A stretch of DNA of 64,000 nt, from contig CATQHF010000004.1 in assembly GCA_958295865.1 (NCBI GenBank), positions 186,001-250,000 on the forward strand, read 5' to 3'. Shown in pieces: positions 58,095 through 62,992 of the stretch. Origin of the DNA: an uncultured Dehalococcoidia bacterium (GTDB lineage: Bacteria; Chloroflexota; Dehalococcoidia; Lucifugimonadales; JADFKI01). How positions within the stretch are numbered: the stretch's first letter is position 1; each line of letters starts with the position of its first letter. A program made the translations under genes and the position numbers. Below the pieces are notes generated by a model. That model had not been told where the DNA came from. It searched no databases and saw only the letters and a list, made by a program, of their open reading frames with translations.

Positions 58095-58147
58095 ACTACT
58101 CTCGCCAACACTGCAAATCGCCAAATCGAACTCCACTGCGACTAACT

Positions 58148-58176
58148 ATTGTATGGGTGGAGGGGCGTGGGGTCAA
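58148..58176 (-). promoter_or_regulatory. Sigma70 promoter of rplU operon
   Basis: On the minus strand TTGACC (58171-58176) and TACAAT (58148-58153) are separated by 17 nt, about 54 bp upstream of the rplU ATG. Confidence 0.75.
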
Positions 58177-58231
58177 GGGTTAGATGGCGTTGCGCTTCAT
58201 CTGCGAGGCGTTAAACACCATTCCCGACATC

Positions 58232-58260
58232 TTGCCATTAAGGGTTTGTGCGATTATTAT
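58232..58260 (+). promoter_or_regulatory. Sigma70 promoter of the GHKL operon
   Basis: TTGCCA (58232-58237) and TATTAT (58255-58260) are separated by 17 nt, 30 bp before the first ATG of the GHKL operon at 58290. It is divergent from the rplU promoter, so the operon carries its own promoter. Confidence 0.65.
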
Positions 58261-58289
58261 ACAATGTGAATAAGGAGCGTGCCCGGTAA

Positions 58290-60185
58290 ATGAAAGGATA
58301 TACGGTGAGCGGTTTCACTTGGCAGTTTCCCCGTAACGAATCTAAAGACATTGAGGGACCTAATGATGCCGGAATAACTCATTTCATGAGCAACCGCCGG
58401 GATAGTGTCATTAGAGAAACAGTCCAGAACTCCCTTGATGCTCGCGCTGACTCATCAAAGCCCGTTAAGGTCAAATTTGAGATCACTGAAAGAACGCCTT
58501 CAGATTTTGCAACCCCTAGTCTCATTGAGGCACTGCGCGCAGCAATCAAATCTAGCCATAATGACGAGGCACACAAAAAGCAGTTTGAGCGCGGTGTCAG
58601 GCTCCTCAGAAAGGGAGGCAGAGTTCAATGCTTGACTATCACCGACAGCAACACAACAGGCGCTGATGATGAACCTCGTTCCAATCGTGCGCCCAGCAAA
58701 TGGGAAGCGTTGACCAAAGGCACGGGATCCAATGCGAAAGACCAGCGCGATGCAGCCGGTTCCTACGGGCTTGGCAAGTTCGCAGCGTTCGCCGTAACAG
58801 ATATTCGGACAGTCCTCTACTCGGTGGCTTATATGTCTGATGGGGAGTTGCGTCACCGATTCCAAGGCAAAACCATCTTAGTGTCGCATGAGAACAGCAG
58901 AAGTGAACCTTGCCGCAGAATAGGTTACTTGGGTGACTCCGGCTATGAGCCTCTAGCCGATAGAAATGTGCCTAGCCAGTTCAAGCTAAGGGAACCAGGC
59001 ACGGCTTTGCACATTCCCGGATATGAGCAGGAACGACGCTGGCAAAATGCAACCATCCGCATCCTTGCGAAGCATTTCTTCCATGCTATCATCCACGATA
59101 AATTGGAAGTCGAAGTTGATGGGCGGGTAGTTAAAGCCGACAACATTGGGGAACAAAATTTTGACACGCAACAGACAAGAAACTTCGTTAGGGTATCGCA
59201 GTCGCCGCCAATCGCCCGCACTCATATCGACGGTATAGGTAATATAGCATTGCGGATTGAGGTGTCCAAAGAGCCATCTGACAGGCGCAGAGAAATTGCG
59301 CTGGTTCGTGATGCAGGCATGATGATTACTGCCCAGCGCCGCGATATGGGGATCCGGCTAGCCGGTAGTGCGCTGCCAAGCCATTGGCATGGATTTACCG
59401 CTATCATAGAATGCCTATCACGTGGCGAACTTTCGCTGTTGCGTGAAGCCGAATCACCCGCGCACGATAGGGTCTCAACAGATTACATCGCTGACCCTGA
59501 TCAGCGCAAAGTAGCCAACGATAGGCTGAAAGAACTTGGCGACTGGGTAAAGGAGCATATCCGAGAATGGACAGAGCCAAAACTATCTGACGATAGTGAT
59601 AACGCTGACGAACTTGCCCCCTGGTTGTCCATAGAGGACGAGGGCGGGGGAGAAGGCGATAGCAACAGTCCCGGGACACAGCGCATAGAATTGACCATGC
59701 CCTATCAGTCAAATCGTCCGCCTCCCCGTCTGCGTGTACGCAGGGGCAAGTCGGTGCCTGCCCCCGCCCCCGGCAAAGGTAGCGAGCCGGTATATCCTGA
59801 TGGCCCGCCCAAAAACAAGAGAAGGACAAATAAACCTTGGGTTGGCGGAAATGTCAGTGTCCCCGCGGCTTTTTCAAATCCGCGATTCGTGGCAGGGAAG
59901 CGGCGTCCTACGCACTCCGTGATTGCCACATTCAACAACCATGAAGACTCGTTGAAAGACGTGCAACTTGTCGCTGTTGGTGAGGATGGGCAAGATGTTC
60001 CGATGGGTATAGTAGAAGCCTATATCGATGGGAAAGCGGCCGAAGTAATCAACGGCGATACAATCTCTGTCCTTGATAGCGGTTCAGATGAGCGCTTGAG
60101 CATTGAGTTCGTTACCCGTGAACCTGTTCTGAACAAAACCTTTCACCTTAAGGGAGTGGCCGACGGCGATGAAGTACGAACCTAA
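58290..60185 (+). CDS. GHKL (Hsp90/MutL-type) ATPase of a putative defence operon
   Basis: This 631-residue protein has the Bergerat ATP-binding motifs: N box RETVQNSLDAR (Glu43, Asn47, Asp50), G1 box ITDSNTTG (119-124) and G2 box AAGSYGLGKFA (155-165). After about residue 230 there is a putative second domain, then a Pro/Arg-rich linker with PAPAPGKG (about 490-500), and a beta-rich C-terminus that may be an Ig-like domain. Proteins of this kind act as sensors or switches in several anti-phage systems. The G1 box has Asn where DxGxG is usual. The next gene overlaps it by 17 bp. It is less G+C-rich than neighbouring genes, a sign of transfer. Its exact job is unknown. Confidence 0.8.
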   Translation: MKGYTVSGFTWQFPRNESKDIEGPNDAGITHFMSNRRDSVIRETVQNSLDARADSSKPVKVKFEITERTPSDFATPSLIEALRAAIKSSHNDEAHKKQFERGVRLLRKGGRVQCLTITDSNTTGADDEPRSNRAPSKWEALTKGTGSNAKDQRDAAGSYGLGKFAAFAVTDIRTVLYSVAYMSDGELRHRFQGKTILVSHENSRSEPCRRIGYLGDSGYEPLADRNVPSQFKLREPGTALHIPGYEQERRWQNATIRILAKHFFHAIIHDKLEVEVDGRVVKADNIGEQNFDTQQTRNFVRVSQSPPIARTHIDGIGNIALRIEVSKEPSDRRREIALVRDAGMMITAQRRDMGIRLAGSALPSHWHGFTAIIECLSRGELSLLREAESPAHDRVSTDYIADPDQRKVANDRLKELGDWVKEHIREWTEPKLSDDSDNADELAPWLSIEDEGGGEGDSNSPGTQRIELTMPYQSNRPPPRLRVRRGKSVPAPAPGKGSEPVYPDGPPKNKRRTNKPWVGGNVSVPAAFSNPRFVAGKRRPTHSVIATFNNHEDSLKDVQLVAVGEDGQDVPMGIVEAYIDGKAAEVINGDTISVLDSGSDERLSIEFVTREPVLNKTFHLKGVADGDEVRT

Positions 60186-61041
60186 GCGCAACTATCTATA
60201 CCCGGTGTTGCGTCCCTACTCAGACGATTACGGCGACGCTAAATTGCAAACAGTCGTAGCGCCGCCTCAGCCTATCGGCAAAGAAGTCATCATCACGATA
60301 GACTTTGTCGTGAACGAGGAAAGCGTAAAAAATCAGGTTATCGCCGGCAACGCAATTTGCGCCGCTATGCTCTATTGCCGCGCCACGCTGCACAGGGAGA
60401 TGCTGACCGCTAACAGAGGCAGTTTCAGATTGCGAAAGTCGGTCGACGCGCAAATGCTTGTCAACGATGTTGAATTGCATCCGTCCATAGTTACGCTGGA
60501 CGGCATCGATCACTCTACCCGCACTGCCCACAGAGAATATGGTGGAGCGATGGCGCAGGTCGGTAGATGGCAGCCACTGGCAACAGACCAAACTTGGCGC
60601 TTTCAAGTGAACGCAGAGCAACGAAATACACAGAGCATCTTCAGGCTTTCTACTGATGATGAACTGTCAGACGACGAATTCGATGTGAAGATGGACCCTA
60701 CTGATAGATACCTCACTATCACTGCAAACAAGCGCACAAGGGAGCGCTTTCAGAATATACGGGAACGGTTGGACATCACCAGATCCACAATCTACCTGAA
60801 CGCCTTGATTGACGCCATGGCGTACTTCAAGTTCAGAGATCTCTGGAATAGCGACATTCCCGGCGATGGATGGGTTAATTGCATCAGAACCAACCTAGAA
60901 AAGCATAGCATCGATATAGGGGATTCTGATAAAGAAGGCAGCCATTCAATCTTTCGCGCAGCCCAATTGCTGTTGGAAAAGCCCTTTGGCGAGCTGATCG
61001 AGAACTACGAACCTTATGAGGACGATTACATAGACGAATAG
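60169..61041 (+). CDS. Uncharacterised protein of the GHKL operon (290 aa)
   Basis: I do not recognise this family. The N-terminal half is probably beta-rich (KEVIITIDFVVNEESVKN and MLVNDVELHPSIVTLDGIDHSTRTAHREYGGAMAQVGRW). The second half is helical and contains KRTRERFQNIRERLDITRSTIYLNALIDAMAYFKFRDLW. It ends in an acidic tail (EPYEDDYIDE). It overlaps the GHKL gene by 17 bp and is 10 bp before the next gene, so it is a fixed part of the operon. It might be a DNA-recognition or adaptor subunit, but no catalytic motif is seen. Confidence 0.7.
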   Translation: MKYEPKRNYLYPVLRPYSDDYGDAKLQTVVAPPQPIGKEVIITIDFVVNEESVKNQVIAGNAICAAMLYCRATLHREMLTANRGSFRLRKSVDAQMLVNDVELHPSIVTLDGIDHSTRTAHREYGGAMAQVGRWQPLATDQTWRFQVNAEQRNTQSIFRLSTDDELSDDEFDVKMDPTDRYLTITANKRTRERFQNIRERLDITRSTIYLNALIDAMAYFKFRDLWNSDIPGDGWVNCIRTNLEKHSIDIGDSDKEGSHSIFRAAQLLLEKPFGELIENYEPYEDDYIDE

Positions 61042-61051
61042 GATATACCAA

Positions 61052-61810
61052 ATGAACGCTGTTCAAATCGTCAACGACAGAGGCTACAAGGAATTGCGAA
61101 ATCTTGCGGCCAGCCAACCGTCCCTCTTTATGGAGTCGGATGCGGAACGCTTGCGCCAAGCAATGGTCAAGGAAGCAGGCACTGATCAGGTGTGGGACAG
61201 GACTATCCCCTTACGATGCTCCCTAGAGCCGCTTAACGATCTTGATAAGTCTGGTCCGAGCACCGATTATCACTATTCGCAGATTATGCGGCAAGCCTTG
61301 ACGGACATTTCACCTGCGGACACCGCCAGCGAGTTGTTTTGGGCGTCCATCAACTGCTTCGCAATCGCTGATTATGTGCCAGAGCGCTGGAAAACCGGAA
61401 TTACGGCCAAAACCAAGATGGAAAATTTCGTTGACAGCCATTGGCTTAAGGCAGGCAGTAACGGGCGTGAAGCTAATGCTGCTGCTAGGCTATGGTGGCT
61501 TGGGGAGATTTCAGAGCGAGTCGCGCAATACTCAAAATACAGTCCGCTAGAATTGCTCGACACTATGGCGAACAATGTCAACCTGTATCACCAGACATTG
61601 GCGCGTCCATATCTGATAGCCAATCCAAGACTGGTGGCGGTGATATACGAAACGGCTATGGATGGCAACGAACATCTATATCAGACCATCTATGCAAACT
61701 CGCTGTTCAAATCTCTCAATCTCCGTGCAGGGGCTACGGCTCTTGACTTGATGGATGATGACGAGTTGCGAACCGTCGTCAGGGAAGCAGTGCCGCCAAA
61801 AAAACCCTAA
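61052..61810 (+). CDS. Uncharacterised helical protein of the GHKL operon (252 aa)
   Basis: This predicted soluble protein is largely alpha-helical: RQALTDISPADTASELFWASINCFAIADYVPERW near the middle and LYQTIYANSLFKSLNLRAGATALDLMDDDELRTVV at the C-terminus. I see no nuclease, helicase or membrane motif. It lies 10 bp after the preceding gene and 32 bp before the PP-loop gene. The function is unknown; it may be a structural partner of the GHKL ATPase. Confidence 0.7.
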   Translation: MNAVQIVNDRGYKELRNLAASQPSLFMESDAERLRQAMVKEAGTDQVWDRTIPLRCSLEPLNDLDKSGPSTDYHYSQIMRQALTDISPADTASELFWASINCFAIADYVPERWKTGITAKTKMENFVDSHWLKAGSNGREANAAARLWWLGEISERVAQYSKYSPLELLDTMANNVNLYHQTLARPYLIANPRLVAVIYETAMDGNEHLYQTIYANSLFKSLNLRAGATALDLMDDDELRTVVREAVPPKKP

Positions 61811-61842
61811 GCCACCGTCCAAGCCGTAACCTTCCGCCGGCA

Positions 61843-62667
61843 ATGAGGGTTATTAGCCTGGGCGGTGGCGTACAAAGCACGGTTATGTGTCTGCTTGCCG
61901 AGCAGAACGAATTCGGTGTCAAACCGGATTATGCCATATTCGCCGATACACGCTGGGAACCAAGTAGCGTGTACGACAACATCGAATGGCTGCGCTCCCA
62001 AGTGTCCTTTCCAATAGTAACAACTAGCAACGGGCGCAGCTTGCGGGACGATGTTATAAACGGCGTCAACGCTCAGGGCAATCCATGGATGACCTTGCCG
62101 GTATTTCTCACGGAGAGGAACGGTGAGCCTGCCGGCATCAATTGGCGTCAATGCACAAAGAACTACAAACTCGACCCCATCCGCAGAAAAGTTCAGGAAT
62201 TACTTGGTGTTAAGCCTCGCCAAAGTATTTCGACTGAAACTCATATAGAAATGTGGCTTGGGATAACAACCGATGAGGCAATGCGTGTTAAACCAAGCAG
62301 GAACTGGTGGATCAGTCATCGGTATCCGCTCATTGATGACATACCAATGGATCGAGACGAATGTAAAGAGTGGTTTGATGCGCTCTACCCGGAGCGCGAA
62401 CTTACACGCAGCGCATGCGTGGGATGTCCGTTCAGAAGCTCATCCAGTTGGCTTGACATCAGAGCGAACGAACCCGACATGTATGAGGAAGCCGTCAGAA
62501 TAGACGCCATGTTCCGCTCCGGGGAACACAACGCAAACCGAATGTTTCGCAAGCAAGCCTATCTGCACTATCGACGCATGCCGTTGGAAGAGGCGATTGA
62601 ACTCGACCATACAGAGCGGGAGGTCAACGGGTTCAACAATGAATGTGAAGGCCATTGCGGGCTTTGA
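61843..62667 (+). CDS. PP-loop (PAPS-reductase/DndC-like) ATP pyrophosphatase-like protein
   Basis: This 274-residue protein belongs to the adenine-nucleotide alpha-hydrolase fold. The PP-loop reads SLGGGVQST (5-13), followed by DTRWEP (35-40), Cys104 in RQCTKNYKLDPIRRK, LGITTDEAMRVKPS and a Cys pair C192-x2-C195 in SACVGCPFRSS. The architecture closely resembles PAPS-reductase-like proteins found in phages and mobile regions, rather than assimilatory CysH. DndC and SspD of phosphorothioation systems share this fold and sulfur chemistry. The gene is last in the operon. A role in nucleotide or DNA modification is inference. Confidence 0.8.
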   Translation: MRVISLGGGVQSTVMCLLAEQNEFGVKPDYAIFADTRWEPSSVYDNIEWLRSQVSFPIVTTSNGRSLRDDVINGVNAQGNPWMTLPVFLTERNGEPAGINWRQCTKNYKLDPIRRKVQELLGVKPRQSISTETHIEMWLGITTDEAMRVKPSRNWWISHRYPLIDDIPMDRDECKEWFDALYPERELTRSACVGCPFRSSSSWLDIRANEPDMYEEAVRIDAMFRSGEHNANRMFRKQAYLHYRRMPLEEAIELDHTEREVNGFNNECEGHCGL

Positions 62668-62717
62668 GGTGGCTAGGCGCTTTCAACTCGACGTATCATC
62701 AGCGCGGCCGTGAGCGG

Positions 62718-62885
62718 CTATGAGCCGATGAAGATGTTTAGCAGGGTGGCTATGAGGGTGGCGACGACTGCTATTCCTCCGGCGAATAGCCAGTTGCGTA
62801 TCTGCCTTATGTCGGCGCGTATATCCCTGATGTCTTCGCGCAGGTCGTCTAGGCGCTTGTCGGTTGGGGTCATGTTCGATGCCAT
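62718..62885 (-). CDS. Small coiled-coil membrane protein (55 aa)
   Basis: The minus strand encodes a 55-residue protein: MASNMTPTDKRLDDLREDIR, then repeated D-I-R heptad-like units, then a hydrophobic helix WLFAGGIAVVATLIATLLNIFIG. This pattern (short coiled coil plus C-terminal membrane helix) resembles XhlA/holin-like small proteins. GACAAGGACGG precedes the ATG. It lies between the PP-loop gene (convergent) and truB. The function is unknown. Confidence 0.65.
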   Translation of the reverse strand: MASNMTPTDKRLDDLREDIRDIRADIRQIRNWLFAGGIAVVATLIATLLNIFIGS

Positions 62886-62992
62886 GGCGTCCGTCCTTGT
62901 CGGTTGGGGATTGCGCCTTGCATTGGTGGTAGCCGCCGAGCGTCGGCGCTGTCAATGAGGCGGTGGCATGGCGTCCCGTCCGTCGGCGTCGA

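Follow-up and report, generated by a model that had tools for sequence, protein, structure and literature searches.

A PDC-M33 variant with a PAPS-reductase-like enzyme in the place of a C5 methyltransferase and a likely frameshift between its last two genes

What kind of system sets a GHKL ATPase beside an enzyme of the phosphoadenosine phosphosulfate (PAPS) reductase type, and what does the second enzyme do there? The question is raised by an operon of four genes, here called A to D, in a stretch of 64,000 nucleotides from an uncultured Dehalococcoidia bacterium (contig CATQHF010000004.1, positions 186,001 to 250,000), which we refer to as the window; other loci and genomes carry our L and G numbers. 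A sequence-only reading had proposed a candidate undescribed anti-phage or nucleic-acid-modification system, and we found its four open reading frames (ORFs) where it had placed them:

58290 to 60185, + strand: A, GHKL ATPase, 631 amino acids (aa), matching PDC-M33A (PADLOC E = 1.3e-74)
60169 to 61041, + strand: B, 290 aa, matching PDC-M33B (PADLOC E = 1.3e-27)
61052 to 61810, + strand: C, 252 aa, matching DUF6339 (Pfam E = 3.8e-22) and PDC-M33C (PADLOC E = 8.3e-18)
61843 to 62667, + strand: D, PP-loop/PAPS-reductase-like enzyme, 274 aa counted from its ATG

Our best explanation is that the operon is a variant of PDC-M33 in which A, B, and C are accompanied by D instead of the usual C5 methyltransferase, D being a likely frameshift extension of C and a predicted writer of sulfur on self DNA. 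Judged from sequence, this reading as a whole appears to us evenly balanced between right and wrong.

The core is a catalogued system in restriction-modification-like neighborhoods

The adjacent A, B, and C proteins match all three PDC-M33 models in the same gene order, whereas D matches none of them (PADLOC). The core is therefore a named PADLOC candidate, and operons combining a GHKL ATPase with Dcm and Vsr were published in 2008 (PMC2292703); to this extent, the operon is neither undescribed nor without a named counterpart. The GHKL boxes reported for A are present and invariant across 36 aligned sequences, and A matches Pfam HATPase_c_3 weakly (E = 0.023). Profile searches and structure predictions, recommended earlier for the then unassigned B and C, returned the PDC-M33B, PDC-M33C, and DUF6339 matches and confident AlphaFold2 models. 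B (predicted local distance difference test [pLDDT] score, 92.5; predicted template modeling score, 0.68) is modeled as an Ig/FN3-like beta sandwich (approximately residues 13 to 150) with a helical C-terminal part. The C model (pLDDT, 94.1) is nearly all alpha, and nothing in the PDB matched it at E ≤ 0.001. None of A, B, and C matched a Pfam nuclease.

A contig scan with the 36 aligned A proteins confirmed 239 stretches, of which the best 80 were kept; with the searched genomes, these gave 92 distinct A rows. The sequence-only reading had asked whether the four genes travel together: A, B, and C do so in 89 of the 92 rows, the remaining three being cut by contig ends, but D is present in only 12. 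The commonest neighbor clusters of A (one representative of each cluster family checked in Pfam) include C5 DNA methylase, Vsr, and HNH_2, placing the core usually in restriction-modification-like neighborhoods, and relatives with D adjoin Avs2, Pbe genes, or GmrSD. The idea of a defense or nucleic-acid-modification system is thus partly supported, in that such defense-like surroundings fit the operon; its core, however, is already catalogued.

Among described systems, PDC-M33 itself is closest, although most of its members lie near a C5 methyltransferase and many near Vsr, and D falls outside its models. PDC-M33 and DUF6339 are unnamed in the literature searched, which comprised neither preprints nor most subscription papers. 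In the accessible part of their account, Iyer et al. described GHKL ATPases with Dcm/cytosine methylase and Vsr in predicted restriction operons (PMC2292703). These MORC/paraMORC operons share that combination with the PDC-M33 neighborhoods, but a helicase, usual there according to the same part, is absent from this operon, and the main text mentions neither PAPS nor the PP-loop. The HEF_HK/Response_reg_2 pairs of 2021 likewise include a GHKL gene adjoining C5 methylase, HNH_2, and Vsr, as far as the available portion of that source goes (PMC8011034), yet none of the four proteins here matches those Pfam families (E ≤ 1). Mza offers a GHKL/MutL-like ATPase in a defense setting, but no Mza model was matched by any of the four proteins (PADLOC).

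In one locus (L027:9992-19456), two convergent PDC-M33 copies flank one further gene and a Vsr-like ORF. Elsewhere, poly-G tracts leave A split over two frames (G11 at L005:10291, G14 at L173:6245, and C11 at L174:12445), and long poly-G/C tracts also occur in the C5 methyltransferase gene (C17 in L011, C12 in L053, and C16 in L121). Six of the nine tracts of at least 10 nucleotides (nt) lie within A or the methyltransferase gene. Phase variation is a possible explanation of these tracts, as is assembly error.

D replaced a C5 methyltransferase once

Within −5/+8 kb of A, a profile-labeled C5 methyltransferase was found in 0 of the 12 rows with D and in 52 of the 80 without it. Restriction to rows with full flanks left the pattern in place (0/10 versus 33/44); the row of the window is not among them, as only 3.8 kb of sequence follows A there. 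Vsr was likewise near A in none of the 12 rows with D compared to 30 of the 80 others. Five further stretches with D, some short-flanked (L173, L174, L193, L194, and L195), contained no methyltransferase or Vsr match.

All rows with D form one clade in the A tree (Shimodaira-Hasegawa-like approximate likelihood ratio test [SH-aLRT] support, 96), and its sister, joined at 87, consists of 14 rows, every one with a methyltransferase. A single clade with a methyltransferase-bearing sister indicates one old replacement; in these sequence comparisons, the pattern is that of one old swap of the C5 methyltransferase for the sulfur-type enzyme D along one clade. The clade spans Chloroflexota and Actinomycetota, D having been kept since the replacement. 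Counting the 12 rows as 12 independent events was ruled out, as all lie in that clade.

A comparable exchange is reported for type 4 BREX, in which the PAPS reductase BrxP replaces the methyltransferase and is often fused to DUF4007, according to the accessible sections of that work (PMC12839542). On that partial account, the likeness lies in a methyltransferase replaced by a PAPS-reductase-like enzyme joined to another subunit. The partner there is DUF4007, in contrast to DUF6339 here, where the joining would be made partly through a likely frameshift, and none of the four proteins of this operon matches PglZ, BrxC, or BrxL (Pfam, PADLOC).

C and D are probably one gene in two frames

In nine loci (L018, L022, L023, L126, L132, L133, L136, L137, and L184), C and D form a single protein of approximately 540 to 570 aa. 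In all 10 copies with separate ORFs (the window, L003, L004, L005, L173, L174, L182, L183, L191, and L192), D is read in the −1 frame relative to C, and 9 of these 10 carry an in-phase X_XXY_YYZ heptamer within 12 codons of the C stop: A_AAA_AAA in the window and L004; C_CCA_AAA in L003, L173, L174, L182, L183, and L191; and C_CCT_TTA in L005. The count was 6/6 in the first set and 3/4 in copies fetched after the idea had formed (L182, L183, L191, and L192, with L183 and L191 near-identical). As background, such a heptamer occurred in the last 12 codons of 58 of 847 mechanical ORFs (≥200 aa), and in 14 of the 847 the −1 frame also stayed open over the 40 codons beyond the stop. The elements at the junction in the window are as follows:

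61781 to 61785, + strand: AGGGA, 12 nt upstream of the heptamer, outside the four Shine-Dalgarno (SD) patterns scanned
61798 to 61804, + strand: slippery heptamer A_AAA_AAA, in phase for −1 slippage, 3 codons before the C stop
61798 to 61842, + strand: −1-frame extension KKTLSHRPSRNLPPA upstream of the D ATG, resembling L003 in protein sequence, as well as L004 and L005 at PPA
61811 to 61869, + strand: predicted stem-loop after a 6-nt spacer from the heptamer (z = −3.74)

The predicted outer stem has 11 bp (61811 to 61821 with 61859 to 61869), its 3′ arm lying in the PP-loop codons. Upstream SD patterns were found in four of six loci (L003, L004, L173, and L174), and we read the AGGGA of the window as a weak SD-like element. 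Translated in the D frame, the gap that follows the C stop is conserved at the protein level (LSHRPSRNLPPAMRV in the window and VSHRSRPNTPPAMRV in L003), and frameshifting would yield a C-D product of approximately 538 aa by arithmetic. L004, L005, and L173 have no ATG, GTG, or TTG between the heptamer and the PP-loop. Among the 120 listed D homologs (of 1,762), 80 start inside or after the PP-loop, as gene callers would have it if D lacked a start of its own, although some of these may be contig fragments. These features suggest that C and D are probably one gene, with C-D made by programmed −1 frameshifting. Sequencing error is a weaker alternative, because every genome shows one and the same offset despite having different heptamers, although A itself is split in L003, L005, L173, and L174.

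D could instead be a separate protein with its own start, stop-start coupled to C, the −1 offset reflecting tight packing and fusion having occurred once in a sister lineage. The ATG at 61843 in the window, the GTG overlapping the C stop in L003, the short starts 2 to 5 residues before the PP-loop in L174, L182, L183, L191, and L192, and the 40 of the 120 listed homologs that retain a start ahead of the PP-loop are all in keeping with such coupling. Nevertheless, no SD sequence precedes the ATG in the window, and L004, L005, and L173 offer no canonical start before the PP-loop. The presence of a heptamer in 9 of 10 copies, when only 14 of 847 background ORFs combine one with an open −1 frame, and a junction conserved as protein are likewise at odds with tight packing, and we consider a separately initiated D unlikely.

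L193 contains two tandem A-B-C-D copies, the second with a truncated D and without the slip heptamer; in L195, from the same genome, D is broken in two.

D is a predicted sulfur-writing enzyme

The only PADLOC match of D is SspD (E = 6.4e-13); D also matches Pfam PAPS_reduct (E = 3e-5) and a phage "phosphoadenosine phosphosulfate reductase" family (E = 1.1e-41). The PP-loop noted earlier is present, and D has seven cysteines, six of them invariant in 22 aligned sequences. By homology only, D is thus a PP-loop enzyme of the Dnd/Ssp type with conserved cysteines. The ATPase of those systems is of the ABC or Orc/Cdc6 type rather than GHKL. In keeping with the absence of DndA/B/D/E and SspB noted in the sequence-only reading, the four proteins gave no PADLOC match (E ≤ 1) to SspA/B/C or DndA/D/E, and hence none to the partner ATPase and DNA-binding subunits (DndD/DndE and SspC/SspB). 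The genome has 10 Aminotran_5 matches, candidate desulfurases that could include a sulfur donor.

In L126 and L137, the genes downstream of A-B-CD on the same strand encode a protein with a Sigma70_r4-like stretch, PbeA (PADLOC E = 1.9e-170 and 2.6e-167 in the two genomes), a PbeC/DndD-type ATPase (a PADLOC match in L137 and, in L126, assigned by likeness to that of L137), and two small proteins, labeled PbeB and PbeD here from their size and position only. This arrangement occupies L126:13950-19900 with L156, and L137 with L155. Neither L126 nor L137 has a C5 methyltransferase match. The accessible part of the original report describes PbeABCD action as dependent on phosphorothioation (PMC6459918). 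From this context and the homology of D, we predict that C-D probably marks self DNA with sulfur, base thiolation being as conceivable a product of D as phosphorothioate.

Relatives of D also occur in 175 plasmid and 49 phage records. In the D tree, free and fused D group with three chromosomal orphans, apart from plasmid and phage D (support, 99). Of the plasmid records, five orphan-D loci were read: D is next to an annotated ArdC gene in two and to a gene for a zincin-like metallopeptidase in a third, a fourth has a nearby DNA adenine methylase, and the fifth has none of these. In alphaproteobacterial plasmids, D abuts or overlaps the ArdC or zincin-like gene at L141:5021-6810, L179:3024-4888, and L139:5009-6813. 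ArdC is a reported antirestriction protein, according to the available part of the source (PMC7213743), and such overlaps suggest a role for orphan D in evading restriction. Three phage loci were also read; a DNA methylase lies approximately 1 kb upstream in one, and a single-stranded DNA-binding protein gene adjoins D in another.

PP-loop enzymes include tRNA and metabolite enzymes, and D might modify a target other than DNA (by tRNA thiolation, or on a nucleotide or signal molecule), with A-B-C-D serving as an abortive or signaling system. The 28 of 80 rows that have neither D nor a methyltransferase would suit such a role. It is harder to reconcile with D occupying the place of a DNA methyltransferase found in the sister clade, with SspD as its only PADLOC match, with Pbe genes after two fused copies, and with the ArdC and zincin-like neighbors at three of the five plasmid loci read; a non-DNA target therefore seems improbable to us. 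That D is a passenger without functional weight in an ordinary PDC-M33 cassette is very improbable: the core is indeed catalogued and often lacks D (80/92 rows), but D has persisted throughout a deep clade that spans two phyla and follows C, fused or in the −1 frame, in 19 of 19 copies read.

Proposed mechanism and its support

The gene set, the insertion described below, the swap, the −1-frame position of D, the slip heptamer, and the in-frame C-D fusions can be read directly from the sequences. In the mechanism that we propose, ribosomes would make much C and some C-D, and C would guide D to DNA. D would use ATP to activate a backbone or base position and then add sulfur from a housekeeping desulfurase. 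A-B-C, alone or with neighbors such as the Pbe proteins, would act on unmarked foreign DNA, closing as an ATP-driven clamp that blocks or remodels it. This clamp, put forward by analogy to other GHKL proteins, is the least supported part, because A, B, and C contain no Pfam nuclease.

Several observations weigh against the PDC-M33 variant reading. The Fisher p value of 1.5e-5 for the exchange of methyltransferase and D overstates the association because the swap happened once, and the 28 of 80 rows without either gene imply that the core may need no linked marker. The operon proteins match no nuclease, desulfurase, or Dnd/Ssp-type ATPase (Pfam, PADLOC), no credible solved structure was found for D by sequence, and relatives of D without A-B-C exist on chromosomes (L175, L176, and L177), plasmids, and phages. 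The RNA structure z-score is −3.74 in the window and −6.15 in L003 but about −2 in L005 (−2.09), L174 (−1.86), and L173 (−1.68) and −0.17 in L004, and neither the window nor L005 has any of the four scanned SD patterns upstream. The heptamer is missing from L192, where D is also truncated; L191 (which keeps the heptamer) and L195 have D in two pieces; and A is split in L003, L005, L173, and L174, so that decay or assembly error is possible for single loci. Separate initiation is possible in the window and L003, given the ATG at D and the GTG overlapping the C stop, respectively.

More tentatively, and leaning toward doubt, we propose a further architecture for DNA sulfur marking beside Dnd, Ssp, and type 4 BREX. 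In it, programmed −1 frameshifting would convert C, the DNA-guiding subunit of a GHKL (MORC-like) restriction machine, into the sulfur writer C-D, with one mRNA setting the ratio of reader to writer and poly-G tracts in relatives able to switch the ATPase off. If true, a third ATPase class (GHKL) would be added to DNA sulfur-marking defense, and the marking enzyme of a restriction operon would be exchangeable while the restricting core stays. The writer-to-reader ratio would be fixed by frameshifting, a point of direct relevance to how these systems spare their host, and the little-studied PDC-M33 would gain a testable logic of a core with an interchangeable self-marker.

The methyltransferase-to-sulfur-enzyme swap and the likely frameshift go beyond the sequence-only reading of this operon; the PDC-M33 core was already known. 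No paper describing the variant was found in the literature searched, which covered few subscription papers and no preprints. None on frameshifting and defense concerned such a system by title or abstract, and among the papers listed none joined paraMORC with PAPS or the PP-loop in the accessible parts of the sources, which included PMC10853773, PMC12839542, PMC12707154, PMC12137116, and PMC13092281.

Insertion site and a second copy in the same genome

Two further features frame the operon:

58137 to 62992, no strand: insertion of approximately 4.9 kb between rplU (50S L21) and truB, from gene spacing in relatives; G+C approximately 0.50
58232 to 58260, + strand: candidate sigma-70-type promoter TTGCCA-N17-TATTAT (consensus match; number of such sites not beyond that in shuffles)

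In G001, G006, and G005 (one genome from the genus and two from the family), only 95, 68, and 73 bp, respectively, separate the matched portions of truB and rplU, compared to 4.86 kb between the genes in the window, which identifies the operon as an insertion between housekeeping genes. Two further relatives with truB had no rplU within the stretch covered. The lower G+C content noted earlier was borne out (approximately 0.50, with higher values in the flanking genes), whereas the proposed shared promoter stands as a consensus match in a sequence where the number of such sites does not exceed chance. The insertion also contains a 55-aa ORF that includes a hydrophobic stretch (62721 to 62885, − strand), with no match elsewhere in its own genome or among the loci compared.

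Relatives of A are rare, occurring in 4 of 8 genomes of the family, 13 of 393 of the class, and 11 of 400 of the phylum. The same order includes G617, whose A repeats that of L015 (contig OY282355.1). The genome itself carries a second copy of the operon on contig C5 (L136, G000:C5:392000-411900), in which C-D is one in-frame protein of 569 aa. Its neighbors are Avs2, a ResIII helicase, and a further protein of the GHKL type, which matches MzaB.

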